This document shows positions 5,222 through 55,295 of a stretch of DNA of 64,000 bases, in pieces. The stretch covers positions 1-64,000 of IMG/VR virus record IMGVR_UViG_3300042691_016646; one strand, 5' to 3'. This stretch comes from a virus. Below the pieces are notes generated by a model. That model had not been told where the DNA came from, made no database searches, and saw only the letters and a list, made by a program, of their open reading frames with translations. The position numbers were made by a program, and so were the translations under genes. How positions within the stretch are numbered: position 1 is the first letter of the stretch; every line of letters starts with the position of its first letter.

Positions 5222-5836
5222 ATGGCATCCACAACAGTTTCTGGTGCTGGTACAAGAAATGATGGCGGTATCGTTCTAAATGGTGGTGCTGTTAGTGAAA
5301 ATCTAACAGATCTATCACTTATCAATAATTTAGCCGATGTTCCCGGCTATGGTACAGTAGTAACACAAGATACTCCATCGGCCCCAAATAATTTCAATGA
5401 CCCTCATGGTGTCACCAAAGTAAAAAGTGCTGGCACTTTTGCTTATACACCACCTGCTGGTAGTGAATTTTTACTAATGGCGGCTGGCGATACAAATGCT
5501 GGTAAGATCAATGGAACATCATCTACTCTATTAACTATCCCCGGCGGTGTTACAGAGTCTGTTGTTAATAAAAACCTAAAAACAACACAGGTTGGTACAT
5601 ATGCTACAAAGACATTTAATGTTTTAGCAGTTCCATCCAGTGGCAATTTCCCCGGTTTGACAAGAGGAACAGGTGCTGGCACAGCTGTGACTTATCCTTC
5701 AACAAGTGGTAATTATCCATCCGTTGACGATGCTGCTACCTTAAGCAGAGCAGTTCCCGGTGAACTTACCTACAGATTTGGAGCGGCTTTACCAACACGT
5801 AATGTTGCCTACAAGGCTAAAGATAGTAACGAATAA
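5222..5836 (+). CDS. putative virion structural protein (204 aa)
   Basis: A Gly-, Ser-, Thr- and Asn-rich protein with no Cys and no membrane segment, of a composition common in head-decoration or tail proteins. It has a perfect AAAAGGAG ribosome site 7 bases before ATG, its own hairpin terminator downstream, and GC content higher than its neighbours, all suggesting high expression. It is the first gene after the sigma factor. I do not recognise the family, so a virion role is inferred from composition and position. Confidence 0.55.
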   Translation: MASTTVSGAGTRNDGGIVLNGGAVSENLTDLSLINNLADVPGYGTVVTQDTPSAPNNFNDPHGVTKVKSAGTFAYTPPAGSEFLLMAAGDTNAGKINGTSSTLLTIPGGVTESVVNKNLKTTQVGTYATKTFNVLAVPSSGNFPGLTRGTGAGTAVTYPSTSGNYPSVDDAATLSRAVPGELTYRFGAALPTRNVAYKAKDSNE

Positions 5837-5858
5837 ATCGTTATTTATGGATGAATAC

Positions 5859-5901
5859 TGGTGCCTTTTGAGAAATCTTAAGGCACCACATCCTTCTTTT
5901 T
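5859..5901 (+). terminator. hairpin terminator (imperfect T tract)
   Basis: TGGTGCCTT (5859-5867) pairs perfectly with AAGGCACCA (5880-5888) around a 12-base loop. The following bases CATCCTTCTTTTTCC are T-rich but interrupted, so it may be a leaky terminator or an mRNA-stabilising 3' hairpin after the structural gene. Confidence 0.6.
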
Positions 5902-5916
5902 CCTACGGAGGCACAT

Positions 5917-6510
5917 ATGCTAGACATAAAAAATCCAGAACATATCACCTTTATATTCAGTATTGTTGGTGGTTTAGGAACATTTTTTAGCATAATGTGG
6001 GTAAAAGCAATCAAGCCTACGCTAAACTTCGTAAAAGGACAGGAAGAGCTTGGTAAATCGCTAGAAACAATCAAAAAAGAATTAACAACTAATGGTGGAA
6101 ATAGCCTAAAAGATGCTATTGTAGACTTACGATCCACTATTAATAGAATGGAAAAACGACAAAAAGTAATAGAACAAAGAACAAAAGCCGCACTTCATTA
6201 CAATGATGTAGCTTTGTTTGAAACAGATGATCACGGTAGACTAACTTGGACCAATAACAACTTCTATGAATTAACACAAGATGTTATCAGTAGTGTAGAG
6301 GGTTTCGATTGGTTAAATTATGTAGTAGAAGACGATAGGATTGATCTTTTTGATGAACTGAAATCTTGCTTAAAGATGAATAGAAAGCTAGTCAAAACAG
6401 TTAAAACAATAGATGGTAAGACAGTCAAAATGACGGGATTTCCATATAGGATTAACGAAAAAGAGCATGGAGGATTTTTAGTAAGCATTTCTCAACTCAA
6501 GGAGATATAA
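5917..6510 (+). CDS. membrane-anchored PAS-domain protein
   Basis: 197 residues. A hydrophobic segment at about 9-31 (FIFSIVGGLGTFFSIMWV) should span the membrane. Residues 40-90 are charged and helical, probably a coiled coil. The C-terminal 100 residues look like a PAS sensor fold: YNDVALFETDDHGRLTWTN, a helical region with WLNYVVEDDR, and the final strands KMTGFPYRI and GGFLVSISQ. PAS domains bind small ligands or proteins. There is no kinase, cyclase or DNA-binding output domain. CGGAGG precedes the ATG. It lies two bases before a small holin-like gene, so a link to lysis timing is possible but speculative. Confidence 0.6.
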   Translation: MLDIKNPEHITFIFSIVGGLGTFFSIMWVKAIKPTLNFVKGQEELGKSLETIKKELTTNGGNSLKDAIVDLRSTINRMEKRQKVIEQRTKAALHYNDVALFETDDHGRLTWTNNNFYELTQDVISSVEGFDWLNYVVEDDRIDLFDELKSCLKMNRKLVKTVKTIDGKTVKMTGFPYRINEKEHGGFLVSISQLKEI

Positions 6511-6512
6511 AA

Positions 6513-6737
6513 ATGTTAGACGTAAAAGTAGGTTCAAAATCATTTTCATTAAACACAACTGATTTAATTTCAGTTGGCAAAAATGCAGCCTTAGTTGGTT
6601 TAGCAGCATTGTTAACATATGTCGGTGAAAATCTAACTAAATTAGATCTTGGCAGCATGACAGCGTTAATTGTCCCAGTTACCGTAGTGGTAATTAACAC
6701 CGTCGTTAAGTGGGCCAAAGATAACACAGTGAAGTAA
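6513..6737 (+). CDS. small membrane protein, holin-like
   Basis: 74 residues with two hydrophobic segments, about 23-39 (NAALVGLAALLTYVG) and 50-66 (MTALIVPVTVVVINTVV), a short turn between, and a charged C terminus KWAKDNTVK. This two-segment layout with a polar tail is typical of class II holins, which form lesions in the inner membrane. It also resembles other small phage membrane proteins, so the call stays tentative. AAGGAG precedes the start. A cysteine peptidase follows 5 bases later, but no cell-wall hydrolase is obvious nearby. Confidence 0.45.
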   Translation: MLDVKVGSKSFSLNTTDLISVGKNAALVGLAALLTYVGENLTKLDLGSMTALIVPVTVVVINTVVKWAKDNTVK

Positions 6738-6742
6738 TTACA

Positions 6743-7660
6743 ATGTTTAAAACACCTAAAGACTTATTAAAAGCTTATAAAGAGGGCTTTGTAGGATCAT
6801 ATTGTGATGCAAAAGAGTTAGATAAACTCTTAGGAGAACTGCCACATCCATTGTTTGGTGTGGCAGCTTATGATCTTTCTGGAAGTGGCAAAGGAAAATT
6901 AGCACTACCCTTCAAGTCCTTACTCAAGTTTGATCCCACATTTGGACCATCGGAAAGACAGGTTCAAGGTGACTGTGTTTCACACGCAACGCGAAATAGC
7001 GTAGATATTACACGCACTTGTGAAATCATAGGTGGAGAACGAGAAGAATTCGTAGCCCGTGGTGCCACGGAAGGCATCTATGGCTCACGCGGTCACGGTG
7101 GCGAGGGCATGACATGCGGCGGTGCTGCACGTTTCGTTCATGAAACTGGTGGTATTTTACTTCGTAAGAAGTATGGCGAATATGACCTCTCAGAATATAG
7201 TGCAATTGGCGGAAAATGGGGACGCTCTGGAGTACCAGCAGACCTAGTTAAATATGCACAAAAAAATCAAGTCAAGACTATAAGCTTAATCAATACAATT
7301 GATCAAGCTAGAGATGCATTATTTAATGGTTATTCTATTAGTGTTTGTAGCAATTCTGGATTTAGTTCTAGAAGAGACAAATATGGTATAGCAGCACGTT
7401 CTGGATCATGGGGACACGCTATGGCTTGGATAGCCATGGATGATACTCATGAAATATACGATGAAACACTATTCTTAGTCCAAAACTCTTGGGGAGTTTG
7501 GAACAATGGTGAAAAACGTTTAGATCAACCCGATGGCAGTTTTTGGATCAGAGAAAGAGATGCGGCAGAAATGCTTGCACAAAATGGCTCTTGGGTATAT
7601 AGTGATGTAGACGGATTTCCTCCAAGAAAAGTAACTTGGACACTAAAAGACATATTTTAA
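6743..7660 (+). CDS. papain-like (C1A-type) cysteine peptidase
   Basis: 305 residues with the three papain-family landmarks in order: QGDCVSHA (catalytic Cys near residue 77, preceded by Gln for the oxyanion hole), SWGHAMAWIA (His near 223) and LVQNSWG (Asn near 249). No signal peptide or prodomain is visible, although about 70 residues precede the Cys. Phage-borne C1 peptidases are uncommon; it could cleave virion or host proteins or act as an injected virulence-type enzyme. The operon position, beside a holin-like gene and before fibre-type genes, fits a virion or lysis role. Peptidase fold is confident, target unknown. Confidence 0.78.
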   Translation: MFKTPKDLLKAYKEGFVGSYCDAKELDKLLGELPHPLFGVAAYDLSGSGKGKLALPFKSLLKFDPTFGPSERQVQGDCVSHATRNSVDITRTCEIIGGEREEFVARGATEGIYGSRGHGGEGMTCGGAARFVHETGGILLRKKYGEYDLSEYSAIGGKWGRSGVPADLVKYAQKNQVKTISLINTIDQARDALFNGYSISVCSNSGFSSRRDKYGIAARSGSWGHAMAWIAMDDTHEIYDETLFLVQNSWGVWNNGEKRLDQPDGSFWIRERDAAEMLAQNGSWVYSDVDGFPPRKVTWTLKDIF

Positions 7661-7672
7661 TAAGGGGCTAAA

Positions 7673-7921
7673 ATGGCTATAACAACAACAGATGTAATTA
7701 CTAACGTAGTATCTAGCAGAGAAACAATTCAAAATGGTTCAGCAGTAGTTTATTGCTGGTTTGGTAAGCCTGTCAGCGGAAGTGGAAGTTATCAAGCATT
7801 AATTAGCCCATTTGAATATGAAAAATCTTACTCTTATACTGCTAATGAAACCAGATTAAAAGATAGATTTGATGATGTTACCTATTACACAACCGGAACT
7901 TCTGGTATATTAGGAGTTTAA
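7673..7921 (+). CDS. small hypothetical protein (82 aa), probably virion
   Basis: No recognised family. It is rich in Ser, Thr and Tyr and looks beta-rich, with no membrane segment. A GGGG sequence precedes the ATG and the fibre-type gene starts 2 bases after its stop. Its position suggests a small tail or fibre-associated protein, but the sequence itself does not show this. Confidence 0.5.
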   Translation: MAITTTDVITNVVSSRETIQNGSAVVYCWFGKPVSGSGSYQALISPFEYEKSYSYTANETRLKDRFDDVTYYTTGTSGILGV

Positions 7922-7922
7922 C

Positions 7923-9251
7923 ATGGGTATAGTAAGAATTAATCAATTACCGTCTGGATCATCTGTTACTGACGATGATTTATTGCTGATATTAGATGAC
8001 CCAAATGGCAATGCCATAACAAAAAGAATATCTGCAAGTTTACTAAGAAATTCTTTATTAAGCCAGCCAGCGGCATTACAGCTCAGACAGGGGCTTGAAT
8101 CTGAATTATTATCAGTCATTCCTTCTCTTGGTGAACCGGTATTTTCTACAAATAAATCTAATCTATACATAGGAGATGGATATACTCAAGGTGGATATCC
8201 AGTATACACTGGCCCAATATATCCAAGCCCATTATGTATTCCCAGTGGCATGATGAGAATAAAAAGCAATAGTAGTTCATCATCACACTCAGCAACATTT
8301 AATACATCAACTGGATATTTAGCTGTACAAACACCAAGTGGTGATGTTAGAGTTTTTGGAAATGGAAATCCAAACAGTTCTATAACAGCCTCAATTACCC
8401 TTAATGCTTCGAATACGGGAATATATGCTAAAAATTCAATAAAAGAATTGTACTATTGGAGTTGCTCATCTGGTAATGCTGCTCAGTCTGGTAACATAAT
8501 AAACTTTTCCAGTAGTGCTAGTTCTAAAAATTTTGAGATTAACTTTGAAGAAATGACATCCTTAACAGGCGTATCTATTAATAGTGATGATACTTTGAAG
8601 TATATTCACTTAAAAAATAACGTGAGCGGAGTAGATATTACTGCAAATTTATTACCAAATTTAGAATGGATTAAAAGTCCAACGGCAAAATACTGCAATG
8701 TAAACGCAAATAGTAATCTACAATGGGCAGACTTTTCTAATGCTTCTGGTTTAACAACAGCATATCTTAGTTCCAATTCATCATTATCAAAACTAAATCT
8801 TAAAAATTGCATTAACTTATCAAGTTTGTTCATTGGTGATAGTAATCTGTCTTCTATAGATTTATCTAGCAATATTAATTTAGCTTGGTTAGTATTTACG
8901 AATGCAAAAACAACATCTTTAAACTTTAGTAATAACAAGATAAATAACTTAGACTTGACAAATTCAACATCACTTCAATCAATTACTTTTTCTCCATCAA
9001 TCATATCATCTAATACATTTGTTTTAGATGGATGTACAAATCTTTCTCAAATAAATTTTAACAATTCATATGGAAATTTTTCATTCAAGAATTGTCAATT
9101 TTCAGCGGCACAGTTAAATAATATTTACAATCTTTTACCAACGGCGGCAACATCAAAAACTATTTATGTATATGGGAATCCGGGTATTAGCACACATAAT
9201 ACTAGTATAGCAACTGCCAAAAACTACATCGTTGATACAACAACTACATAA
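7923..9251 (+). CDS. fibre-type protein with N-terminal attachment domain and leucine-rich-like repeats
   Basis: 442 residues. Residues 1-95 form a domain shared with the protein at 10471 (both have RINQLPSG or KITQLPSG, then TDDDLLL and DDPNG/DDPSG), resembling the virion-attachment ends of phage tail fibres. From about 210 to 400 there are repeated units of about 20-24 residues with the pattern LxxLxLxxNxxL (SSIDLSSNINLAWL, NNLDLTNSTSLQSI), like bacterial surface leucine-rich (BspA-type) repeats that bind ligands. AGGAG lies 6 bases before ATG. It is followed directly by a serine protease. A receptor-binding fibre is a reasonable reading. Confidence 0.65.
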   Translation: MGIVRINQLPSGSSVTDDDLLLILDDPNGNAITKRISASLLRNSLLSQPAALQLRQGLESELLSVIPSLGEPVFSTNKSNLYIGDGYTQGGYPVYTGPIYPSPLCIPSGMMRIKSNSSSSSHSATFNTSTGYLAVQTPSGDVRVFGNGNPNSSITASITLNASNTGIYAKNSIKELYYWSCSSGNAAQSGNIINFSSSASSKNFEINFEEMTSLTGVSINSDDTLKYIHLKNNVSGVDITANLLPNLEWIKSPTAKYCNVNANSNLQWADFSNASGLTTAYLSSNSSLSKLNLKNCINLSSLFIGDSNLSSIDLSSNINLAWLVFTNAKTTSLNFSNNKINNLDLTNSTSLQSITFSPSIISSNTFVLDGCTNLSQINFNNSYGNFSFKNCQFSAAQLNNIYNLLPTAATSKTIYVYGNPGISTHNTSIATAKNYIVDTTTT

Positions 9252-9252
9252 T

Positions 9253-10461
9253 ATGTCTATTTTACAAGCAAAAGGCGTTCCGATAAACTGTGGATCTACT
9301 AATAATCCTCCATCTTGGACATTTAGTAAACCCAATTTATCTTCAAAGTTGGAATACAATAGTTATTTTAGGCCCATTTCGCCATCATCTTCGGGTTCTA
9401 TAGTTGACAAAGATACAAATATATATAGAGTATCTAGTTCATCTGGAATCAGAGATTTTATCTTTGAATCATCTAATAAAAAAATAATATCTATAAAAAG
9501 CTATTCAAATAATGTTCTTATTAATAATCTGCAATGTTCTGGAATATCAGTAGGGAATGATACACTAGAACTATCTTTTGATGATGGATCTAATCAATAT
9601 GTTAATATCAATATACAATATTCTCCAATTGGTAGTACATCAAATCAAGATACCTTTTTGTCTTTTGTGAATAATAGTTTATCAAGTCATATAACAGATC
9701 AAGTAGACTTAAAAATATCTGGAATATCACCAACCTCTTCACAGCAAGTATACTCTATTCAAAATCATGCAAATAATATTTACACTAGAAATTCTTCTTT
9801 TGTATTTAAAAATGTTGATTTTACATGCATCAGCCCATGGAATTCCTACGGAATAACAAATAGGGCAGGCGTTTTGATAAGCCCTAGGCATGTAATGTTT
9901 GCTGCCCACTATCCTATTGCAAGTGGATCAACTATAAGATTTGTAACAAATAATAATGTATCAATAACTAGAACTATCACAGGTGTTATTACTCACCCAA
10001 ATTATAATTCTACAAGTAAGTCAAATGACATACAAATTGCTTTGTTAGATTCAGATCTTCCAAATACTATTTCATTTACAAAAATTCTTCCAATTGACTT
10101 TGGAAAATATCTACCAAGTATTAAACGTGGAATAGAAATACCAGTTATAATAATAGATCAGTCAGAATATATTAGTATAACAAACTTATACCAATTATCT
10201 TCTATAGCAAAATGTATAGGTCAAGAATTAACTTCTATACGTAGACCATTTTTTAGAGAATTATATGCTGGCGATTCTGGTAGTCCAGCATTTCTATTGA
10301 TAAACAACGAACTAGTGCTTATATTTGTAACAACTTGGGGAATAGGAGGATCTGGAAGTTTTACGTCATTACAAAAAGATGCAATAAATCAAATGATGCA
10401 ACAGCTTGGTGGTGGATATCAATTAACAGAAATATCCTTATCCTCTTTTACTTCTTATTAG
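9253..10461 (+). CDS. trypsin-like (S1-type) serine protease, copy 1
   Basis: 402 residues. The ATG at 9253 is chosen over an upstream TTG because MSILQAKGVPINCG aligns with the paralogue's MTLLPAKNYPINCG. The catalytic triad is visible: His219 in FAAHYP, Asp259 in SNDIQIALL and Ser342 in AGDSGSPAF. The N-terminal 190 residues are a separate Ser- and Asn-rich beta-type domain. No signal peptide is seen. It follows the fibre-type gene with no spacer, and the pair is repeated immediately downstream. A virion-borne protease acting on host surface protein or on fibre maturation is inferred. Confidence 0.78.
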   Translation: MSILQAKGVPINCGSTNNPPSWTFSKPNLSSKLEYNSYFRPISPSSSGSIVDKDTNIYRVSSSSGIRDFIFESSNKKIISIKSYSNNVLINNLQCSGISVGNDTLELSFDDGSNQYVNINIQYSPIGSTSNQDTFLSFVNNSLSSHITDQVDLKISGISPTSSQQVYSIQNHANNIYTRNSSFVFKNVDFTCISPWNSYGITNRAGVLISPRHVMFAAHYPIASGSTIRFVTNNNVSITRTITGVITHPNYNSTSKSNDIQIALLDSDLPNTISFTKILPIDFGKYLPSIKRGIEIPVIIIDQSEYISITNLYQLSSIAKCIGQELTSIRRPFFRELYAGDSGSPAFLLINNELVLIFVTTWGIGGSGSFTSLQKDAINQMMQQLGGGYQLTEISLSSFTSY

Positions 10462-10470
10462 GAGATATAT

Positions 10471-11166
10471 ATGCCAGTAGTAAAAATAACTCAACTGCCA
10501 TCTGGCGTAGCCATTACAGATGATGATCTACTATTAATGGTAGATGATCCAAGCGGTGTTGCAATAACAAAAAAAATATCAGCCAATATATTGAGAAGTT
10601 CGTTATTGAATCAACCAGCTAATTTACAGTTTAATAGGGGAACAGAGTCTGAAGTAGCATCATATATTCCATTACAAGGTGAGCCTGTTTGGGATACTAC
10701 AAATAAAATCCTTTATGTTGGGGATGAATCTACTTATAGTGGCATCCCAATAGCTTATCCAACGAAAGCATACAAATTTACTGGCTTGTCTGGCGGAAAT
10801 AATACACCTTGGTTTTCTATTAGTCTTAGTCCTCAAAATTCAGTTTGGGAATTTGATATATATGCCAATTTTAGTTTGTACTCAGAAGGAAATAGTACAG
10901 CAACATTTTCATTTTCTTCATCTACAAACATACAAAATCTGTTAGGAACTTTAACATATATAGATAGTACGACTAACACTGCACAACATTTTTCTTTAAT
11001 AAATAGTGATATAACATGTAATGTTGCTAGTGATAGCGAGACATTAAAAGTGAATGGCATGTTTACTGTATCTTCTGGTACCGGGCTATTTGTGTTTAAA
11101 GAACAGAATGATAACCAAGAATCCGGTGCAACTATAGCATATATTAAGATAAGAAGAGTTATATGA
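10471..11166 (+). CDS. fibre-type protein sharing the N-terminal attachment domain
   Basis: 231 residues. The first 95 or so residues match the N terminus of the protein at 7923 (KITQLPSG, TDDDLLL, then GEPVWDTTNKILYVGD compared with GEPVFSTNKSNLYIGD). The rest is a different, shorter beta-rich domain (WFSISLSPQNSVWEFDIYANF to the end), perhaps a jelly-roll-like tip. So an identical base carries a different tip. AGGAG precedes the ATG and the stop overlaps the next protease start by 4 bases. Confidence 0.6.
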   Translation: MPVVKITQLPSGVAITDDDLLLMVDDPSGVAITKKISANILRSSLLNQPANLQFNRGTESEVASYIPLQGEPVWDTTNKILYVGDESTYSGIPIAYPTKAYKFTGLSGGNNTPWFSISLSPQNSVWEFDIYANFSLYSEGNSTATFSFSSSTNIQNLLGTLTYIDSTTNTAQHFSLINSDITCNVASDSETLKVNGMFTVSSGTGLFVFKEQNDNQESGATIAYIKIRRVI

Positions 11167-12455
11167 CTTTATTACCAGCAAAAAATTATCCAATTAATTG
11201 TGGATCACCAACTACGAATTTCAATTCTCGTAGATTTAACAAGACAAAAATATCAGAAATTCCATATAATATTGATATAACAAGTGATCTCGTAGAGTTA
11301 GCTGGAAATAGTTCGGGTTCGCAGACTTTTAAAGATAGGGTTTATTCCTATAAAGCATCTGCTTCATTTAAAAGTAAATATTTGTTGAATATTACAGAAA
11401 AAAACATAAATAACACCGCATCTACTATAAGCCTTACTACAGATTCCTCATCAATAAGTTTAGTAAAGACCTCTGATACCTTATGGGTTTGTAATTATGT
11501 ATCAGATGGTATGGCTAAAATAGTGGCAACGAATAGTTTAGGTGTCAAAAGAATACTAAACGTACAATCTTTTTCAACAAATAGTTCTTATGCTTATTCA
11601 TTTACTAATTATGCAACAGGATCTTTGGCTCAACATTTAGTTCAAATTCTTAGCAGATTAAATAACAATCCATCTCTTCCAATTTTTTCTACTCAAAATC
11701 CTGCTACTCAGGAATATATAAGAAATTCTAATTGCTGGGTAAATGATATTGATTTTACTAGCAAGGGAGTATGGAATACTAGCGGTGGATTTGGAATGGG
11801 AGGGTGCTTATTGACAAGAAAACATATGATATTCACATCACATTCAAATTATTTTCCATCTGTTGGATCTCAAATACATTTTGCTGAAAAATCTGCGGCT
11901 ACCAATCAAAAAGAACCAATCTACATAGGAACTGTAGTCAATGTTAGCAATAGTATCTCTGGAGATAAAAGATTGATAAGATTGTCATCAGATGTTCCTA
12001 GTGTGATATCTCCAGCCAAGATACTACCAAGTAATTTTTCTTCATACTTTCCAAATCAAAGAATTGGTGATAATTGCAATTGCGTTAGTGGAGATGGAGA
12101 TTTGAGTATACCAGCAGTATGGATAGATCAAAACAATGTAGCTAGATTGAGATTGATATCTATTAATAGAGATGATTCTTTTTATCAAAAAAGTTCAACT
12201 GCTTATGCGTCTTATTCTCAATATGCCCCATCAGCCGTAGCTGGAGACTCTGGTAGTCCAATTTATCTCATTATCAATGGCAGTGCTGTATTTTTATCAA
12301 ATCACACTGGTCCAGAATTCGGATACTGCCTAATAAGACATCAAGATGAATATCCATATTATTCAATCATACAACAAATCAAAAACCAAATTACGGCTTG
12401 GGGCGATTCACACACTATCTCTACAGTCGATCTTTCAAGCTTTAACTCATATTAA
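11163..12455 (+). CDS. trypsin-like (S1-type) serine protease, copy 2
   Basis: 430 residues, paralogous to the protease at 9253. The triad is present: His227 in FTSHSN, Asp268 in SGDKRLIRL and Ser363 in AGDSGSPIY. The N-terminal domain has the same start (MTLLPAKNYPINCG) and a similar YIRNS and VDFT/IDFTSKGVWN junction before the protease domain, but overall divergence is large, so the duplication is old or fast-evolving. ATGA overlap with the fibre-type gene suggests coupled, equimolar production. Both copies look active. Confidence 0.78.
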   Translation: MTLLPAKNYPINCGSPTTNFNSRRFNKTKISEIPYNIDITSDLVELAGNSSGSQTFKDRVYSYKASASFKSKYLLNITEKNINNTASTISLTTDSSSISLVKTSDTLWVCNYVSDGMAKIVATNSLGVKRILNVQSFSTNSSYAYSFTNYATGSLAQHLVQILSRLNNNPSLPIFSTQNPATQEYIRNSNCWVNDIDFTSKGVWNTSGGFGMGGCLLTRKHMIFTSHSNYFPSVGSQIHFAEKSAATNQKEPIYIGTVVNVSNSISGDKRLIRLSSDVPSVISPAKILPSNFSSYFPNQRIGDNCNCVSGDGDLSIPAVWIDQNNVARLRLISINRDDSFYQKSSTAYASYSQYAPSAVAGDSGSPIYLIINGSAVFLSNHTGPEFGYCLIRHQDEYPYYSIIQQIKNQITAWGDSHTISTVDLSSFNSY

Positions 12456-12467
12456 GGGTATATTAAA

Positions 12468-29688: not shown

Positions 29689-31311
29689 ATGAAATGGTTT
29701 CCACTTAAAAATTATACCCATTATAGTCTATTGCGTGGTTTTTCTAAGCCAGAAGAATTGGCCCAAAAGTGTAAAAATAATGGATATACAGCATGTGGTA
29801 TCTGTGATTATAAAACACTATCCGGCGCAGTAGCCTTTTATAAGGCTTGCAAAAAGCAGGGGATAAAGCCCATTATTGGATGCTCCTTTGATTTTGCTAC
29901 ACTCTTTGCTAAGAACAAAGAGGGTTGGTATGAATTGATTGAAATGGTTTCGGCGTTGGACGAAAACGGTAAACTCCCAAGAGATTTTGATAGTCTAGAG
30001 GTCAGTAAAAATCTTATTAGTATTAGTGCTTTTAATAGCCAAAGCGACTCTATGCCTATTAGTTATTATACTAATCGTGAAGATGCCAAGCTTCATAGAA
30101 TATTATTATGTTCAGACATGAAGACTACTCTACCTAAAATAAAAAAGAGTATTAAACCAGACGGTAGTGTAGATTCGAAGTATCCACAAGAACATATGGA
30201 TAAACTAGTATATTTTATGCAAGACTCATTCTATGTAAAAAATAAGAGTGAATCTGAAGGTCTAGATACATCTAAGCTAAAAACGATTTACGATCAATGC
30301 GAAGACTATGATATTCTTAGTAAGCCAATGCTTCCAAAATTTGAATGTCCAAAGGGTGCATCAGAAGAAGATTATCTCAAAGAATTATGCCGTGTTGGCT
30401 GGAAGAAAATATTAATAGATCAAAACAAGGTATCAAAAGAAGAAGATAAGCAGAAGTATCTTAGTAGATTTAAAGAAGAGTTTGACGTTATTAAGGATGC
30501 TAATCTATTCGGATATTTCTTAATTGTGCATGATATTATACAGCACGTTAATGATATGGGGTGGCTTTCTGGTCCCGGTAGAGGGTCTGCCGCCGGATGT
30601 TTGATTTCATACTTAATTGGTATCACAAAGATTGACCCAATAGAGTTTGACCTTCTATTTGCACGATTTTATAACGCTGGACGAAATACGGCTGATCACA
30701 TATCTTTACCAGATATTGATATGGACGTTCCCGGCACTAAACGTGATGAAATTATATCATATATAAAAGACAAGTATGGTCATGAAAGAGTAAGCCAAAT
30801 GTTAACGTTTGGTAGATTACAGGGAAAGAGTGCAATAAAAGAAATATTGCGTGTTAATGAAGCCTGCTCTTTTGCGGAGATGAATGCTATCAGCAATTGC
30901 ATTCCAGACGAGGCTAAGATTTCAGATCAATTAGCAGAAATGGACGATGAAGATAGATCTATCATAAAGTGGGCATTGATAAATAATGCCGATGCACTAC
31001 GGGACTTTTGTAGATTATCAGAAGACGGTAAGTTAGAAGGAGAGTATGCTGAATATTTTGAGCAAGCTATTCAAATAGAGGGTACATTTAAAACTCAAGG
31101 TAAACATGCCGCTGGAGTGGTTATATCTGCTGAACCTTTACAGCAAGTATGTCCAATGGTAAAGCAAAAGGGATCATCTGAAAAGATTGCCGGATTAGAA
31201 ATGTCAGATTTAGAAGCGTTAGGCCATGTAAAGTTTGACGTTTTAGGTATTAATCTTCTTGATAAAATTATGAAAATAGAGGAGATCGTTGATGATAGAC
31301 AAAATAAATGA
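29689..31311 (+). CDS. dnaE: DNA polymerase III alpha subunit, N-terminal fragment (PHP, palm, thumb)
   Basis: 540 residues covering the first half of bacterial Pol III alpha. Residues 1-70 are the PHP domain (THYSLLRG, then GYTACGICDYKTLSGAV), but the metal-binding HxH is replaced (NYTHYS), so its exonuclease is probably dead. The catalytic palm follows: GPGRGSAAGCL (about 300-310), PDIDMD (two catalytic Asp near 342-346) and KFDVLG (third Asp near 516). The protein stops 24 residues after KFDVLG, exactly where the fingers should begin; these are encoded by the separate gene at 32826. AGGAG precedes the start. Confidence 0.92.
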   Translation: MKWFPLKNYTHYSLLRGFSKPEELAQKCKNNGYTACGICDYKTLSGAVAFYKACKKQGIKPIIGCSFDFATLFAKNKEGWYELIEMVSALDENGKLPRDFDSLEVSKNLISISAFNSQSDSMPISYYTNREDAKLHRILLCSDMKTTLPKIKKSIKPDGSVDSKYPQEHMDKLVYFMQDSFYVKNKSESEGLDTSKLKTIYDQCEDYDILSKPMLPKFECPKGASEEDYLKELCRVGWKKILIDQNKVSKEEDKQKYLSRFKEEFDVIKDANLFGYFLIVHDIIQHVNDMGWLSGPGRGSAAGCLISYLIGITKIDPIEFDLLFARFYNAGRNTADHISLPDIDMDVPGTKRDEIISYIKDKYGHERVSQMLTFGRLQGKSAIKEILRVNEACSFAEMNAISNCIPDEAKISDQLAEMDDEDRSIIKWALINNADALRDFCRLSEDGKLEGEYAEYFEQAIQIEGTFKTQGKHAAGVVISAEPLQQVCPMVKQKGSSEKIAGLEMSDLEALGHVKFDVLGINLLDKIMKIEEIVDDRQNK

Positions 31312-31816
31312 ATTGATAAACATATCTAGTTCTAGGGACGAAGTGTTCTTAAGTATTTTGAATACTTTTTCTAATAAGTCGGTTAATATTTTTCAAATTG
31401 GTGCCATAGAAACACTAGATAATTATTTATTTAGGATAGGTTCTGGTTGGTCAGATATAGTATTTGGTAACTATATAAAGAAAAATGGTGGAACATTTAC
31501 TATAGCAGATATATCTTTAGACCACTTAGCACACTCAAATTTAATTGCCAGCCAGTTAGGTTATAATGTCAATCTTTGTTATGGCAACGGATTAGATCAT
31601 ATTACTCCAGAATACAATATTTATTATCTAGATGGAAGTATAGATCCAGCCGAAACCAAAAATCAGTTTGATAAAATATTATCTTTTAACCTAAAAGATA
31701 TCTATATATGTGTTGATGATTTTTCCATTAAAGGAACAACAATAGATCTTTCCATATATCCATTTAAAATTCACAAGATAGAAAAGGGGCTAGGAGTATT
31801 ACATTATCATGGCTAA
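31292..31816 (+). CDS. class I SAM-dependent methyltransferase-like protein
   Basis: 174 residues. GGAG at 31281-31284 lies 7 bases before ATG 31292, and the gene overlaps the end of the polymerase fragment by 20 bases. The pattern FQIGAIE (motif I position), GGTFTIADIS (acidic end of strand 2) and IYYLDGSID fits a Methyltransf_24-type Rossmann fold, though the glycine-rich loop is weak, so cofactor binding is uncertain. It is the first of three genes lying between the two polymerase halves and has no obvious replication role. Confidence 0.5.
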   Translation: MIDKINELINISSSRDEVFLSILNTFSNKSVNIFQIGAIETLDNYLFRIGSGWSDIVFGNYIKKNGGTFTIADISLDHLAHSNLIASQLGYNVNLCYGNGLDHITPEYNIYYLDGSIDPAETKNQFDKILSFNLKDIYICVDDFSIKGTTIDLSIYPFKIHKIEKGLGVLHYHG

Positions 31817-32489
31817 TAGAGACTATATTATATTTGATTTTGAAACTGGAAGTAGAAATCCTCACAGAACCCAACCAACACAAATAGCTGCTATTGCTTT
31901 AGACGGCAGAAGCTTAACAGTAAAGGGGCAATTTAATAGTGAAATCAAGCCTATTTTTGACGAGGATAAGGCACGGGCAGCGGGATTCGATCCAGTAGAA
32001 GATGAAGCATTAAAGATCACTAAAAAGACTAGAGAGCAACTAGAACTAGCACCCTCTCTAAAAGCGGTATGGACTAAATTTACTAAGTTTGTTGATCAGT
32101 ATAATTGGAAAGGTGATGCATTTTTTAATCCTATCCCAGTTGGGTTCAATATCATTGGCTTCGATATGCATATAATTAACCGTTTATGCAGAGACTTCGG
32201 ACCTTGGGATAAAGAAAGAGAACAACAGAAACTATTTAGTAGAGTCTATAAGATAGATATAATGGATAATATATTCGCGTGGACAGAAAGCGATCCAAGT
32301 GTTAGATCTATTAGCATGGACTCACTACGAGAAAGAATGGGGCTATCATTTGACAATGCACACGACGCATTACAGGACGTTAAGGATGAAGCTAATATAT
32401 TCATAAAGCTCATGAAGACTCATCGTGCGGTGTATCAGAATATGAATTTTGATAAGGCATTTGCTGACGGAAATTTATATGTCAAATAA
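31809..32489 (+). CDS. DEDDh 3'-5' exonuclease (DnaQ-like proofreader)
   Basis: 226 residues with the DEDDh active site: IIFDFETGS (Exo I, D-x-E near 9-11), NIIGFDMHI (Exo II Asp near 117) and HDALQDVKDE (Exo III, His and Asp near 182-187). It would remove mismatched 3' ends, the job of epsilon subunit in bacteria, and would compensate for the degenerate PHP domain of the polymerase. It sits between the two polymerase genes and overlaps both neighbours slightly, so co-expression with the replisome is likely. Confidence 0.85.
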   Translation: MANRDYIIFDFETGSRNPHRTQPTQIAAIALDGRSLTVKGQFNSEIKPIFDEDKARAAGFDPVEDEALKITKKTREQLELAPSLKAVWTKFTKFVDQYNWKGDAFFNPIPVGFNIIGFDMHIINRLCRDFGPWDKEREQQKLFSRVYKIDIMDNIFAWTESDPSVRSISMDSLRERMGLSFDNAHDALQDVKDEANIFIKLMKTHRAVYQNMNFDKAFADGNLYVK

Positions 32490-32829
32490 GATTTGCCCAA
32501 AATGTGGACAATTTAAGGATGAATCTGAATTTCGATATAGACAAAGATCAGAAGATAATTCCTTATTAAGAACATATACAAATTGTAAATCTTGTGAGCA
32601 TAAAATAAATACATTACTAATCAAACTTAAAAAGGAAAACAATCATACTAAACCGATCAAATGCGAATGTTGTGGAAAAAGTGGAAAATTACACTTAGAT
32701 CATTGCCATAAAACAGATTTATTTCGCGGATGGCTATGCAATAATTGCAATGTAGGGATGAGTAGATTAGGAGATAACATAGAGGGCTTAATTCAAGCAT
32801 TGAATTACTTATTGTCGAGGAATAAATGA
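32479..32829 (+). CDS. endonuclease VII-like (HNH/His-Me finger) nuclease
   Basis: 116 residues from ATG 32479. The zinc knuckles CPKCGQFK and CKSC, then CECCGKSG, HLDHCHKT and RGWLCNNCN, form the recombination-endonuclease VII motif, with the His-Me finger DHCHKT as active site. Family members cut branched DNA (as T4 gp49) or act as free-standing homing endonucleases. It overlaps the exonuclease by 11 bases and the second polymerase fragment by 4. Its location exactly in the polymerase break suggests a homing origin for the split. Confidence 0.82.
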   Translation: MSNKICPKCGQFKDESEFRYRQRSEDNSLLRTYTNCKSCEHKINTLLIKLKKENNHTKPIKCECCGKSGKLHLDHCHKTDLFRGWLCNNCNVGMSRLGDNIEGLIQALNYLLSRNK

Positions 32830-34394
32830 TCGATATTGATTATAATGATAAAGCAACTTGGCAGTTATTCGCAGAAGGTAAAACTAAGGGTATCTTTCAA
32901 TTAGAAAGTAACCTTGGAAAGTCTTGGTCTAAAAAATTAGCACCAACCAATCTAGAAGAACTTTCTGCATTAATTGCTATTATTAGACCGGGAACTTTGA
33001 AAGCTTTCGTTGATGGCAAAAGCATGACCCAGCGATATGTAGACAGAAAGCATGGAAGGGAAGAAGTAACCTATTTACATCCGGCACTAGAAGACATATT
33101 AAAGCCAACATATGGAGTTCTTGTATATCAAGAACAATCCATGCGTATAGCTGAAAAAATTGCTGGATTTAATCTACAAGAAGCTGATGTTCTTCGTAAG
33201 GCTATCGGAAAGAAGAAAGCCGATCTTATGAATGAAGTCAAAAAATCATTTATAGCAGGAGCAGAGCGAGTAGGAACCGTTTCTAAGGAAGACGCTGAAC
33301 AAATCTTCGGATGGATTGAAAAGTCTGCACGATATGCTTTCAATAAGTCGCACAGCGTTTCATATGCAGTATGCTCCTATTGGAGTGCGTATTTTAAGGC
33401 CCACAATACCAAAGAGTTCTTCTTATCATATCTATACTATGCTAACGAAAAACAAGACCCTCATCAAGAAGTCTACGAATTAATATCAGAAGCAAAACTG
33501 TTCGATATTGAGACTAGAACACCAAGTTTGACCAATTTTGATCGTAAGTTCAATATCAAGGATGGAAAGATATACTTTGGTATTAAAGATATAAAGTCAT
33601 TAACTGGTGCTACTGGCGATAAGTTAATTGAGACTATTATAGTCGCAGAACAAGATTTAGGAAAAAGCGTCGATAAGTTTACTTGGCTAGAAATTCTATT
33701 ATTTATCGGGGCAAATATTAGCTCTACATCTTTTAAGGCTCTAGCTTCTATAGGATTCTTTAGAACCATCAAAGGCAGTGTAAGCCGAAACAAAGCTTTG
33801 TATGACTACGAGATATATAGGACTCTTACCAAATCAGAACAAACTTGGATATTAAACAACTATACCACTAAAAAATGGAATACATTTATGGATTGCTTAA
33901 AGGACTTAGCACCTACCAAAAAGGAGGGTGGAGGAACTAGCAAAGCCGATAGAAAACAAGCTATAGAAAATGAAATACAATTATTAGCTAATCCACCGTA
34001 TGACTTAGAAGATGATCCAAGTTGGATAATAGATCAAGAAATTAAATTCTTAGGTTGTCCAGTTACTATGACCAAGGTTGAGACTTCTGACACTTCTGCC
34101 GCCAATACAACTTGCAAAGAGATTGTGAATGGTAAAAAGGGCAAAGATATGTGCATAGTAGCAAATATACACAGACTGTCAGACTATACAATAACTAAGG
34201 GAGAATCAAAAGGGCAAGTTATGTCATTCCTAACAATAGAAGATGACACATGTATATTAGATAGCGTAATAGCATTTCCAAAAGTGAGAGAAAAATATAA
34301 GTATATTCTGTATGAAGGTAATAATTTAATATTTTGTGGGTCAGTCGGCGTCAATGATACATCTTTTATTGTTGAAAAAATTCATGAAGTATGA
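32826..34394 (+). CDS. dnaE: DNA polymerase III alpha subunit, C-terminal fragment (fingers, clamp-binding, OB)
   Basis: 522 residues continuing Pol III alpha where the first fragment stops. FQLES (near 23-28), IIRPGTLKAF, RKHGREEVTYLHP, YGVLVYQEQSM and FNKSHSVSYA are conserved fingers motifs. The C-terminal 90 residues carry an OB fold (GQVMSFLTIEDDTCILDSV). Its start IDIDYNDKATWQLFAEGKT aligns with the helix that follows KFDFLG in intact bacterial enzymes, so few or no residues are lost between the halves. The start ATG overlaps the endonuclease stop in ATGA. The fragments should assemble by non-covalent contacts. Confidence 0.9.
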   Translation: MIDIDYNDKATWQLFAEGKTKGIFQLESNLGKSWSKKLAPTNLEELSALIAIIRPGTLKAFVDGKSMTQRYVDRKHGREEVTYLHPALEDILKPTYGVLVYQEQSMRIAEKIAGFNLQEADVLRKAIGKKKADLMNEVKKSFIAGAERVGTVSKEDAEQIFGWIEKSARYAFNKSHSVSYAVCSYWSAYFKAHNTKEFFLSYLYYANEKQDPHQEVYELISEAKLFDIETRTPSLTNFDRKFNIKDGKIYFGIKDIKSLTGATGDKLIETIIVAEQDLGKSVDKFTWLEILLFIGANISSTSFKALASIGFFRTIKGSVSRNKALYDYEIYRTLTKSEQTWILNNYTTKKWNTFMDCLKDLAPTKKEGGGTSKADRKQAIENEIQLLANPPYDLEDDPSWIIDQEIKFLGCPVTMTKVETSDTSAANTTCKEIVNGKKGKDMCIVANIHRLSDYTITKGESKGQVMSFLTIEDDTCILDSVIAFPKVREKYKYILYEGNNLIFCGSVGVNDTSFIVEKIHEV

Positions 34395-34758: not shown

Positions 34759-35400
34759 ATGATACCAAATAATATTATATTAACTTACAAAAATGATAAG
34801 ATTCCAAAGTATGTTTTTGATAATATAAAACTACTAAATCCAGAAAAGAATATACTGTTTTTTACAGATGAAGATGTGGTAAAATTTCTTCTAAAAGAAT
34901 ATGACTCATCGTATGTTGACTTTTTCCATGGCGTAAAACTTGGATGCACTAAAGGAGATTTTTTTAGATATTGTTACTTGTTAAAGTTTGGTGGATATTA
35001 CTGCGATGTTGATATTAAACATGTAGAACCTATTGATCATTATACAGCAGATAATCTTGAATTTTTTAGTGTTAATTCTGCAATAGGTCCAATGACATTT
35101 CAAGCTTTATTATATTGCGAAAGCGAACACCCAATTATATTAGATTGTATAAAAGATATAATGAATCCAGAAACAGCCAAAGATTTATTTTATCAAACAA
35201 CAGAACATATGTACAAAAATATAAAAAAATACTTAGACATCACATCTATGATTCAACCAACAGTATATATGATAAATAATAAAGCTATACAAATAGCTCA
35301 AGAATATCAATTAAATTCGACATATGTATGTATTTACGGAAATAAAATAATAGCATTGTCGAGATATCCAGAATATCAAAGGGAAGTAGGATTCATATGA
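34759..35400 (+). CDS. DXD-containing glycosyltransferase (GT32-like)
   Basis: 213 residues. The beginning MIPNNIILTYKNDKIPKYV followed by GVKLGCTKGDFFRYCYLLK and GGYYCDVDI (DVD near 76-78) is the sugar-binding DXD region of the GT32/OCH1 capsular-polysaccharide transferases, where the DXD motif binds a divalent metal and the nucleotide sugar. No membrane anchor is seen, so it acts in the cytoplasm. It opens the eleven-gene sugar island and overlaps the next gene in ATGA. Confidence 0.75.
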   Translation: MIPNNIILTYKNDKIPKYVFDNIKLLNPEKNILFFTDEDVVKFLLKEYDSSYVDFFHGVKLGCTKGDFFRYCYLLKFGGYYCDVDIKHVEPIDHYTADNLEFFSVNSAIGPMTFQALLYCESEHPIILDCIKDIMNPETAKDLFYQTTEHMYKNIKKYLDITSMIQPTVYMINNKAIQIAQEYQLNSTYVCIYGNKIIALSRYPEYQREVGFI

Positions 35401-37067
35401 GAAAACCAAGAATATTATTTTGCAGCGAAGCTACATTTTTGAACACCGGATATGCTACATATACTAGAGAGATTTTGAATTATCTCCACAGTACTGGTAA
35501 ATATGAACTTGCAGAAATGGCTTCTTATGGAGAAAGAAATGATCCACGGGCATCATCTATACCGTGGAAATTTTATGGCGTTGTCCCAGATGCTTCGTGT
35601 TCTGAGGAAGAAAAAAATCAGTATAATCAACAGCCAGTAGCACAATTTGGTGAGTTAATGTTCGAATCTGTTTGTCTTGACTTTCTTCCAGATATAGTGT
35701 GTGATATTCGTGATTTTTGGATGTTAGACTTTGCAGAAAGATCGCCATTTAGAAAATATTTTAAATGGTGCATTATGCCAACCGTAGATGCTAGACCACA
35801 AGCAAGACAATGGATAGCAACTTATGAATCTGCTGATGCATGTTTGACATATTCTGAATGGGCTGGAGAAGTATTGAAGCAACAATCGGGTGAAAAAATC
35901 AAGTATATAGGAATTTCACCGCCATCGGCCCATCATGCTTATCGCCCCATAGAAGACAAAGAAGGGTTAAGATCATCTATGGGTATTGATCCTAACGCAA
36001 AGATCATTGGCACCGTAATGAGAAACCAGCGTCGTAAATTATATCCAGATCTTTTTCAAGCATTTAGATTATTATTAGACAGAGTAGAAGACAATTCTAA
36101 TTATTATTTGTATTGCCATACCAGTTATCCCGATCTTGGATGGGATATACCAGAGCTATTACAACAATATCAATTGTCCTCTAAGGTATATTTTACATAT
36201 ATATGTGGCCAAACCGGCAAACCATTTCCATCCTTATTCAAAGGTGCCATAGCACAATCTCCATTTACTGGACAATTTGGTGCATCATTGTCTAATGTCA
36301 AAAATGGTGTAGAATATGAAGATTTGTCTAAGATAATTAACTTGTTCGATCTTTATGTTCAATATGCTAACTGTGAAGGTTTTGGATTACCGCAAGTTGA
36401 AGCAGCGGCATGTGGCATCCCAGTAATGGCTACAGATTATTCTGCTATGGAAAGTGTAGTAAGAAATCTTGGCGGTATACCATTGGCCCCAAAAGCTTTG
36501 TACAAAGAGTTAGAAACTGGATGTTTCAGAGCAGTACCAGATAACGAATTAGCCGCACAAAAGTTTAAAGAATTTTTTGAACAACCAATCGGTATAAGAA
36601 AGAGAATGGGCTTTGAAACAAGACAAGCATTTTTGAAACATTATCAATGGGATCAAAGCGGAAGGGCTTGGGAAAAATTCTTTGATTCTGTAGAAATCTC
36701 AGACAATTTCGAAAATTGGAAACAACCACCAAGAATAGTAACGGCTAAACCAAAACCCGATCCAATTCCGACTAATGTCAATTATAAGGATTTAGCCAAA
36801 TGGTTGATAGTTGAAGTTCTTGGAGAGCCAGAACGATTAAATTCATATTTTGAGTCTAGAATTGTAAGAGATTTAACATACAAAAATCACACAGCTACTA
36901 CTGGCGGTATGTACTTTAATGAAAGTTCTTCCATGTTTGATGGTAAACAAAATAGAAGTCCTTTCGATTTTAGTATAGCATATGATCAGTTAGCATATTT
37001 GTCGCAAAGACGAAATTATTGGGAAGAAAAGAGAATAGAAATGTTGAAAGCTAGAGGTATGATATGA
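35397..37067 (+). CDS. large GT4-type glycosyltransferase (556 aa)
   Basis: Two-domain GT-B enzyme. The N-terminal acceptor domain begins RILFCSEATFLNTGYATYTR; the donor domain has GTVMRNQRRKLYPDLFQAF (about 204-222) and the EGFGLPQVEAAACGIPV motif near 328-344. The C-terminal 100 residues after PKPDPIPTNV are an extra domain (KDLAKWLIVEVLGEPERLN) not found in standard GT4 enzymes, possibly for acceptor or partner binding. Overlaps both neighbours by 4 bases. Confidence 0.8.
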   Translation: MRKPRILFCSEATFLNTGYATYTREILNYLHSTGKYELAEMASYGERNDPRASSIPWKFYGVVPDASCSEEEKNQYNQQPVAQFGELMFESVCLDFLPDIVCDIRDFWMLDFAERSPFRKYFKWCIMPTVDARPQARQWIATYESADACLTYSEWAGEVLKQQSGEKIKYIGISPPSAHHAYRPIEDKEGLRSSMGIDPNAKIIGTVMRNQRRKLYPDLFQAFRLLLDRVEDNSNYYLYCHTSYPDLGWDIPELLQQYQLSSKVYFTYICGQTGKPFPSLFKGAIAQSPFTGQFGASLSNVKNGVEYEDLSKIINLFDLYVQYANCEGFGLPQVEAAACGIPVMATDYSAMESVVRNLGGIPLAPKALYKELETGCFRAVPDNELAAQKFKEFFEQPIGIRKRMGFETRQAFLKHYQWDQSGRAWEKFFDSVEISDNFENWKQPPRIVTAKPKPDPIPTNVNYKDLAKWLIVEVLGEPERLNSYFESRIVRDLTYKNHTATTGGMYFNESSSMFDGKQNRSPFDFSIAYDQLAYLSQRRNYWEEKRIEMLKARGMI

Positions 37068-38176
37068 AAGTACTATACATAGGTCATTACAAAGAAAATA
37101 GCGGGTGGTCACAAGCTGCCATGGATTTAATTCAAGCTATAGATTCCGCTGGTATAGATATTGTATGTAGAAACATAAAGTTAACATCAAAAACATTCAA
37201 TACGCCAAATAAAATAAAAGAGTTAGAAAATAAATCTCTTGATAACATTGATATATGTATTCAGCATTTATTACCTCATCATTTAGTGGGAACATCAAAG
37301 TTTAAGAAAAATATAGCATATTATGTCGGGGAATCCACAACATTAAAGTACAATAATTGGAAATCCAACCTGCATATTATGGACGAGATTTGGGTTCCGA
37401 ACCAAACTCAATTAAATAATATGAAAAAAGATGGTTTCAATAACTTGAAATGTGTACCACACGCATTTGATTTAGCTAAATATTCACAGAAACAAACTTC
37501 ACAAATAAATTTTGGTGATAAAAATAACACTTTTAAATTCTATTATATAGCAGACTTAAACCAGCGAAAAAATATAGAATCCGTAATAAAATGTTTTCAT
37601 AGTGAATTTTTTAGACACGAACCAGTTTCTTTAGTATTGAAGGTAAAAAAGTTTGGTGTTAATCCAATAGAGCTACAAAAACAGGTTCAAAACATGTGTC
37701 TTACTATTAAGAATACATTAAGAATCTATCCATCGATAGATGACTACCATAAGGAAATAATTATTACTGATGATATGTCATCTGAAGAAATTAATATTTT
37801 GCACCAATCGTGCGATTGCATGGTTAATACAACTCATGGCGAGGGATGGTCTATACCATCATTTGATGCCATGTGTTTTGGAAAGACTCCGATATGCAGT
37901 AATGAGGGTGGTCCAAAAGAATTTATTAAAGATAAAAACACCGGTACTCTAATAAGTGGTATATATTCTGTTTGCGAACACTCGGACTCCGCATTTCCAA
38001 ATATATTCACAGGAAGAGAGTCTTGGTTTGTTCCAGATGAGGAAGAAATAAAGTCAGCTATGAGATTTTACTATGAGAATAAAGATTCTATAGATAGAAA
38101 TAAGGGTCTTGAGAATGCAAAACAATTCTCATACGAAAATGTTGGTAACTTGATAAAGGAATTACTAAATGCTTAA
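37064..38176 (+). CDS. GT4-type glycosyltransferase
   Basis: 370 residues, GT-B fold. The start KVLYIGHYKENSGWSQAAMD gives the Gly-rich acceptor loop; the donor region has FYYIADLNQRKNIESVI (about 158-174) and THGEGWSIPSFDAMCFGKTP near 256-275. AGAGG precedes the ATG. It overlaps the next transferase by 8 bases. Substrate unknown; probable member of a multi-enzyme glycan pathway. Confidence 0.78.
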   Translation: MKVLYIGHYKENSGWSQAAMDLIQAIDSAGIDIVCRNIKLTSKTFNTPNKIKELENKSLDNIDICIQHLLPHHLVGTSKFKKNIAYYVGESTTLKYNNWKSNLHIMDEIWVPNQTQLNNMKKDGFNNLKCVPHAFDLAKYSQKQTSQINFGDKNNTFKFYYIADLNQRKNIESVIKCFHSEFFRHEPVSLVLKVKKFGVNPIELQKQVQNMCLTIKNTLRIYPSIDDYHKEIIITDDMSSEEINILHQSCDCMVNTTHGEGWSIPSFDAMCFGKTPICSNEGGPKEFIKDKNTGTLISGIYSVCEHSDSAFPNIFTGRESWFVPDEEEIKSAMRFYYENKDSIDRNKGLENAKQFSYENVGNLIKELLNA

Positions 38177-45906: not shown

Positions 45907-46002
45907 TTATTTCATATATAAGAAAAACCAAGTTATAAAAGATCCCAATAGCATTCCTAATGAGCTTATAAAAAACAGGAATTTATTTATTGGATCTTTC
46001 AT
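45907..46002 (-). CDS. 31-residue single-pass membrane microprotein
   Basis: An ATG at 46002-46000 overlaps the TGA of the upstream structural gene in ATGA. The product is MKDPINKFLFFISSLGMLLG followed by SFITWFFLYMK: one 22-residue hydrophobic segment between Lys-bearing ends. The TAA lies just two bases from the terminator hairpin. Size, coupling and hydropathy argue for a real gene, possibly a small membrane regulator or lysis factor. The call is based on sequence only. Confidence 0.55.
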   Translation of the reverse strand: MKDPINKFLFFISSLGMLLGSFITWFFLYMK

Positions 46003-46730
46003 AGGTATTCTACGGTGTAGTATAGTCCATAATTAGTTTTGCTTCCAATTGCTTCTGGTTCCGAACTAAGAGCAATATACCAATCGTGTTGCATAGATTG
46101 ATGAGCAATACCACTTTGAGAAGTATACCCAAGGGCTGAATCGCTATCAGTAGTGCTAGTATTTAATCCGCTCATGCCGGGAGAAGGTGTAAGTGCCAAA
46201 TCAGTCTGAGCAGCTGGACTGCCAGCTGGACCCGGAGAAAATTCTTTCCATACAAAATCAGAAACACCCCTTAAAGCCAAGCTAGCCTTAGAAGGATCAG
46301 AAGAAGGCTTACGGGCTTCGTATACCCAAGTTGTAACTCCGCTTGCTGGCTTATCAATACCATGATCCCTTGCAAAGATTCTTAATTTACCATTTTGAAC
46401 ACGAACAGGTGTGCTATGAGTAAATCTTACATTGAGTGGGCAAAGGTAATTAGATAATTTATCTAGATCTATAGGGGTGGCACTATTTACGCTGACTGTA
46501 CCTTTGCTGGAATTATTGACTCCACTGGCGACTTTAGCGGTATTATTTAATCTTGGCCCCGAATTTGTACCATCAGCATTAGTAATCCATGTGGTACTCT
46601 GCTGGGAACCTACTGGAACTGAAACACCAAAATCCAACCCGTAGAATCCTATACCGGATCCTAAATCGTGCCTAATTAAATTATCTCCACCGGCAGACAA
46701 GAAATTACCATAAAATTTGATTTCAGCCAT
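45999..46730 (-). CDS. putative virion structural protein (243 aa)
   Basis: A Gly-, Ser- and Asn-rich protein with no membrane segment, starting MAEIKFYGNFLSAGGDNLIR and ending YGLYYTVEYL. Long loops with little helix suggest a beta-sandwich tail or fibre component. AGGGAG precedes the ATG. It is last of the large minus-strand virion genes, and its stop doubles as the microprotein start. Not similar to a family I can name. Confidence 0.55.
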   Translation of the reverse strand: MAEIKFYGNFLSAGGDNLIRHDLGSGIGFYGLDFGVSVPVGSQQSTTWITNADGTNSGPRLNNTAKVASGVNNSSKGTVSVNSATPIDLDKLSNYLCPLNVRFTHSTPVRVQNGKLRIFARDHGIDKPASGVTTWVYEARKPSSDPSKASLALRGVSDFVWKEFSPGPAGSPAAQTDLALTPSPGMSGLNTSTTDSDSALGYTSQSGIAHQSMQHDWYIALSSEPEAIGSKTNYGLYYTVEYL

Positions 46731-46776
46731 AGAATTCTCCCTATATTTGTGGGTTATATTGTAATATACACTTTTA

Positions 46777-50145: not shown

Positions 50146-50158
50146 TTGTTTTTCCTTA

Positions 50159-54877: not shown

Positions 54878-54878
54878 G

Positions 54879-55295
54879 TTAAACCCTATACTGTCTACTA
54901 TACATTTCAAATCTAAAAGAGGCTGTTATCAAAGAATTATATACATTAAATCTTGGGCTACTGCCCATAGAAACATTAGTTATACCAGCACCTCCTAATG
55001 CTGAACCAACAGCACCAGCACTTCCAATCGGTGCGTAATGTATATAGTCATTATACTCTTTAAAATCAGTAATCCCATTTACTCTAGATGCATACCCATT
55101 AGAAATTCCAACAGTCTCAAATGTCAAGCCATTAGGTGCTATTGGGCTAGGAGGTCGCGCAACAGACACCGCATCATAAGTAAGTCCATAGGTTACTCCT
55201 CGCATATCATTTGTTAATTGAGGAGATATACGACTATCGTTAGCATCTAATCCTTCTGATGGATTATTATTAATATTTTCTGAATCTGTTGGCAT
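54879..55295 (-). CDS. small virion-type protein (138 aa)
   Basis: The ATG at 55295-55293 overlaps the previous stop in TAATG and has an AGGTAGGAAG-type ribosome site, so a longer upstream start is rejected. Polar, Gly/Ser/Asn-rich with a C terminus FRFEMYSRQYRV. No motif recognised; probably a tail-associated protein co-expressed with the flanking large genes. Confidence 0.5.
   Translation of the reverse strand: MPTDSENINNNPSEGLDANDSRISPQLTNDMRGVTYGLTYDAVSVARPPSPIAPNGLTFETVGISNGYASRVNGITDFKEYNDYIHYAPIGSAGAVGSALGGAGITNVSMGSSPRFNVYNSLITASFRFEMYSRQYRV

Follow-up and report, generated by a model that had tools for sequence, protein, structure and literature searches.

A putative exchange cassette of fibre tip and trypsin-like protease, present as two tandem modules in an uncultured virus

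The DNA analysed here, called the window, is the first 64,000 bases of a linear 89,579-base record from an uncultured virus, which carries T4-like replication genes for a UvsX-like recombinase, a DnaB-like helicase, a primase and a split DNA polymerase. The polymerase is divided over two genes within 29689-34394, matching phrog_405 positions 246-618 and 625-1055, and the ORFs between them include one for an RNase_T-type exonuclease. An adjoining pair of glycosyltransferase-like genes (phrog_2170) occupies 35397-38176, and the minus strand of 45999-63741 holds very large ORFs of 1122, 1583 and 2198 aa, the first with no PHROG match and the second with no Pfam match. At 7923-12455, four co-directional, tightly packed genes make up two modules in tandem, in each of which a gene for an S1-type serine protease comes directly after a fibre gene; they belong to a co-directional gene run that, by inspection, lies upstream of apparent ribonucleotide reductase genes. 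An earlier note on this DNA had described two back-to-back copies of such a pair, and all four genes are indeed present. The genes, and the blocks in which relatives differ, are the following.

7923..9251, plus strand: fibre 1 (442 aa), with an anchor (aa 1-50), an Mtd_N domain (aa 53-88) and a leucine-rich-repeat-like tip
9253..10461, plus strand: protease A (402 aa), with an N-terminal domain and an S1 trypsin-like domain that matches PF00089
10471..11166, plus strand: fibre 2 (231 aa), with an anchor of the fibre 1 type, an Mtd_N domain (aa 53-85) and an unrelated short tip
11163..12455, plus strand: protease B (430 aa), with an N-terminal beta domain and a diverged S1 trypsin-like domain
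10635..12462, no strand: slot 2 exchange block, covering the Mtd_N domain and tip of fibre 2 and the entire protease B; replaced in L005 (blastn)
8093..12461, no strand: two-slot exchange block, replaced in L022 and L025 by a single fibre and protease module plus a sulfotransferase gene

Within the modules, one base separates fibre 1 from protease A, which starts at the ATG at 9253 (the mechanical ORF begins earlier, at a TTG at 9232), and fibre 2 overlaps protease B in an ATGA. Just upstream, 6743-7660 encodes a papain-like protein with the motifs VQGDCVSH, GHAMAW and VQNSWG, for which Pfam, PHROGs, NCBIfam, PDB sequences and named phages hold no meaningful match. Its gene is kept beside the module in close relatives, a similar-looking papain-like gene lies on the other side of the module in L019, L024 and L031, and the protein is possibly a second peptidase of the system.

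The two fibres share a base and differ in their tips, as the earlier note had claimed: 55 of their first 94 residues are identical (59%, E 4e-26 by BLASTP), and past residue ~94 BLASTP finds no similarity. The Mtd_N domain (PF18454) scores above Pfam's cut-off of 26.3 bits in both fibre 1 (34.2 bits, E 2.3e-8) and fibre 2 (35.3 bits, E 1.1e-8), and both therefore appear to have a receptor-binding protein base of the type found in Mtd of Bordetella phage BPP-1. The proposed folds of the tips fared unequally. In tip 1, leucine-rich repeats are readily seen in the translation and find weak matches in an unnamed PHROG (phrog_7816, E 8e-8) and an LRR protein in the PDB (6mky, E 0.05). The jelly roll suggested for tip 2 was not confirmed and is set aside: the AlphaFold model of fibre 2 is unusable (pLDDT 38.7), the tip has no PDB match, and its only relatives in viral contigs are near-identical records. 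Neither fibre has a C-type-lectin match in Pfam, a result to be read for fibre 2 with the pLDDT of its model in mind.

The proteases are related to one another at 28% identity from end to end (E 1e-26), a similarity that, like that of the fibre bases, is far above chance. Protease A matches the Pfam Trypsin family (PF00089; 25.4 bits against a cut-off of 20.6, E 1.5e-5). Protease B matches no Pfam family; its AlphaFold model, built on 30 relatives (pLDDT 78.6), finds trypsins in Foldseek with E values of ~1e-5 to 1e-6 and probability 1.00. Among viral proteins, the best match is to an uncharacterised one of 452 residues from an uncultured Caudovirales phage, and the alignment spans most of its length. 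Across an alignment of 30 diverse relatives, columns average 21% identity and no more than nine are invariant; these include H227, D268 and S363 of protease B, the GDSG motif and a second His six residues ahead of the catalytic one. The His-Asp-Ser triad, which both window proteases had been said to keep, is thus retained in 30/30. Because the triad is invariant and pairwise dN/dS of the whole proteases is 0.09-0.37, these proteins most likely work as enzymes and are subject to purifying selection. Neither A nor B has a signal peptide-like stretch or hydrophobic N-terminus, as judged by N-terminal hydrophobicity, and they are therefore not obviously secreted. Big_2 Ig-like domains occur in 5/30 proteases, and simple amino-acid repeats (GIGSTSV, SAETSAEYTS, PQGKTG) precede or follow the protease domain in L034-L037, L039, L042 and L047.

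The same pairs recur in related viruses and in other phages, where the earlier note had advised looking for them. Mtd_N fibres and proteases occur in equal numbers in five records (2/2 in the window record, then 2/2, 2/2, 1/1 and 1/1). In a sixth, the single protease follows a fibre that has two Mtd_N domains, and two more Mtd_N matches lie elsewhere; all of these counts come from records of uncultured viruses, which may be fragments. In the loci nearest the window, the fibre lies directly upstream of the protease, and its stop codon often overlaps the protease start codon; fibre-bearing modules have gaps of roughly -4 to +10 bases. Mtd_N fibres hold this position in L014, L021 and L031, and the upstream gene matches a tail-fibre PHROG in L014 and in L045 (E 1e-33). 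Farther afield, the protease gene of a Puniceicoccaceae assembly (L070) has a tail-fibre gene on one side and a tape-measure gene on the other, a single protein in L051 combines the protease with a C-terminal fibre-like region (phrog_2647, a virion family; E 1e-15), and a collagen-type repeat, below Pfam's cut-off, precedes the protease in L042. The only match among 50,697 named phage records is podovirus MW202510.1, in which the gene directly upstream of the protease is annotated as a ‘rhamnogalacturonan lyase’. Relatives are also present in assemblies of PVC bacteria; some, from Kiritimatiellae, Lentisphaerae, Verrucomicrobia and Bacteroidales assemblies, are apparently secreted or very large proteins. 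No recognisable fibre adjoins the protease in L034, L037 and L039-L042, and in L052 it follows another gene.

Comparison of close relatives points to the fibre tip and the protease as an exchange cassette that is replaced jointly. Four loci (L005, L015, L022 and L025) share the flanks of the window at 80-87% DNA identity and differ in their tip and protease pairs. Between the window and L005, blastn identity of 86.6% runs from 5507 to 10634, at about residue 55 of fibre 2, breaks off, and resumes at 12463, seven bases past the stop codon of protease B; L005 carries a different tip and a different protease between the breaks. With L015, the break begins already in fibre 1 (8031), and the two modules are both different. 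With L022 and L025, the alignment stops at 8092 and restarts at 12462. In L022, the sulfotransferase gene (6278-7078 of that locus; PF13469, E 1.2e-15) comes after the single module and before the conserved genes farther downstream, and a very similar gene follows the single module of L025. The slot 2 tip and protease block of L005 recurs in L015 (92% protein identity in the fibre, 97% in the protease) and in L031, where a 2,465-base stretch that starts at fibre residue ~32 and stops close to the protease end is 86% identical on a backbone otherwise largely unalignable with L005 as DNA; L031 and L019 in turn have flanks that are 73-90% identical and different modules. Exchange of a tip alone or of a protease alone was not observed among the compared relatives, which represent a small number of independent events, about five. 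This joint replacement, the equal counts in 5/6 records and the frequency of tail fibres as neighbours together strongly support the view, already put forward in the earlier note, that a protease is paired with each receptor-binding protein.

At greater depth the association fades. Tip and protease similarity are not significantly correlated across 14 diverse modules (Mantel rho 0.16, p 0.08), nor after removal of two close relatives (rho 0.03, p 0.44), so that strict deep co-evolution of protease and tip is rejected, and we claim only a recent, block-wise joint exchange. Such exchange may mark a functional unit or, given the weak link at depth, may reflect plain adjacency between conserved flanks. 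Finer divergence is also seen within slots: in the comparison with L005, fibre 1 of the window diverges most in its repeat region (8500-9000; 74-93% identity per 100 bases), and the end of fibre 1 with the start of protease A (9100-9900) is 95-100% identical; slot 2 of L005 and L015 follows a similar pattern, with a diverged fibre middle and a conserved fibre/protease junction. A diversity-generating retroelement was considered as a source of tip variation and rejected, since no RVT_1 reverse transcriptase matched in the window record and four relatives, five records that may be incomplete.

The computations document the pairing, the active-site conservation and purifying selection, the joint tip/protease exchange, the adjoining tail genes elsewhere and the fusions to fibre-type or Ig-like domains. 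We posit that each module encodes a two-part adsorption device, a fibre and its partner S1 serine endopeptidase. The fibre would be held on the particle by its conserved anchor/Mtd_N base and would present an exchangeable receptor-binding tip at its far end, and the protease would be carried on the particle, at or close to its fibre. Once the fibre has attached to a surface structure of the host, the protease would cleave protein there (S-layer, outer-membrane or receptor proteins), and cleavage could (i) open a path to the membrane or (ii) free particles from unproductive binding. From gene order and sequence, we give this reading, a virion-borne endopeptidase that works with each receptor-binding fibre on a host-surface protein, about an even chance; the virion location, catalysis and host-surface substrate of the proteases are what we infer. 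Display on the particle is favoured by the tail context, the fusions and the absence of a hydrophobic N-terminus. As deep correlation between tip and protease is lacking, one protease family would serve unrelated tips, and this tilts the balance slightly from tip-specific processing towards a substrate common to all, such as a host surface protein.

The device would be a protein-cutting counterpart of depolymerase tailspikes, divided over two genes. Depolymerase tailspikes cut polysaccharides and combine both roles in one protein; the proposed logic, receptor binding coupled to a barrier-removing enzyme, is the same, whereas the enzyme here is a predicted protease from a separate gene. Mtd of BPP-1 offers a likeness in the Mtd_N base, but the window fibres have no detected C-type-lectin tip, their records hold no detected retroelement reverse transcriptase, their diversity appears to arise through cassette exchange, and each has a protease partner. 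As members of peptidase family S1, the proteases are recognisable from the Trypsin match of A, the trypsin fold of the predicted model of B and the invariant triad and GDSG motif; they differ in their extra N-terminal domains (Ig-like in some members), in the invariant second His of the aligned relatives, in the lack of a signal peptide in the window copies, and in being phage-encoded next to fibres. Fibres that work as a pair with an accessory gene are known from T4 (gp37/gp38), Mu (tail fibre/Tfa) and Alteromonas phage V22 (gp26/gp27), and the accessory genes directly downstream (T4 gp38, Mu Tfa, V22 gp27) encode chaperones or adhesins (PMC7289586). The protease gene likewise lies directly downstream of the fibre and is exchanged with it; in contrast to the ~20 kDa chaperone/adhesin, however, the window proteins are S1 proteases of 402 and 430 aa, and neither matches a chaperone/adhesin accessory model in Pfam, PHROG or NCBIfam.

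Because known downstream accessory genes encode chaperones or adhesins, gene position alone fits a surface protease or an enzyme of fibre maturation. In the latter case, the main rival, the protease would act during assembly within the infected cell, trimming the fibre it is paired with or some other protein of the virion; it might, for instance, cut off a folding segment so that the fibre can become active, and it would not have to stay on the particle. T4, Mu and R-type pyocins have their tail-fibre chaperone genes in the slot directly downstream of the fibre, and tailspikes and fibres are known that shed a C-terminal chaperone domain by autoproteolysis (PMC7289586). The replacement of tip and protease as one block would suit a matched enzyme and substrate, as would a fibre/protease junction that stays 95-100% identical in two comparisons while the fibre middle diverges. 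Yet the unrelated tip folds have no evident common cleavage segment, although the proteases form one family; the protease does not track tip sequence at depth, which speaks somewhat against a tip-specific fibre-activating enzyme; and certain relatives carry a fused fibre-like or collagen region or have no adjoining fibre. We regard an assembly or maturation enzyme as possible but doubtful.

Hitch-hiking appears less probable still. Here joint exchange would follow from neighbourhood between conserved flanks, with the protease acting elsewhere, for instance intracellularly or, at lysis, on proteins of the host or of competitors, and both the non-significant deep correlation and the relatives that adjoin genes not recognisable as fibres (L052, L034, L037) fit this reading. 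The equal counts and immediate adjacency in several distinct phages, the tail-module location in L070 and the fusion to a fibre-like region in L051 argue against it. We consider it very unlikely that the trypsin-like protein caps the fibre tip in the manner of gp38, as a structural or adhesive component whose peptidase activity matters little. Several family members do carry Big_2 Ig-like domains, and position and joint exchange recall fibre-tip adhesins such as S16 gp38 (PMC7289586); however, a scaffold would be expected to lose the triad and GDSG sometimes, and both are invariant in 30/30 relatives at 21% mean column identity. A degenerate protease that serves as a pure adhesin is rejected on account of the invariant triad.

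Fibre exchange, fibre-accessory pairs, the Mtd_N base and the S1 fold are already known. Our analysis suggests, from sequence comparison, what would be new: a trypsin-like protease as a regular partner of exchangeable fibres, moved with them as a cassette. We found no description of a fibre-paired trypsin-like protease in the open-access literature, which offered only chaperone and depolymerase precedents. Joint swapping of tip and enzyme suggests that the cutting enzyme is part of host recognition or entry, and the cell-surface enzymes known from phages mainly cut sugars or peptidoglycan. More tentatively than for the window modules themselves, we propose a widespread, apparently undescribed class of phage adsorption devices in which modular receptor-binding fibres and a dedicated, particle-borne trypsin-like protease that cuts proteinaceous envelopes are swapped as a cassette. 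Relatives occur in assemblies from the Planctomycetota-Verrucomicrobiota-Kiritimatiellae-Lentisphaerae group, whose members may have surfaces rich in protein. If the preferred reading of a surface-acting, particle-borne protease is true, protein would be a barrier or receptor for these viruses, and the modules would mark, at the genetic level, uncultured phages whose host recognition depends on protein; they would also provide paired, naturally exchanged enzyme-binder units whose roles are directly testable.
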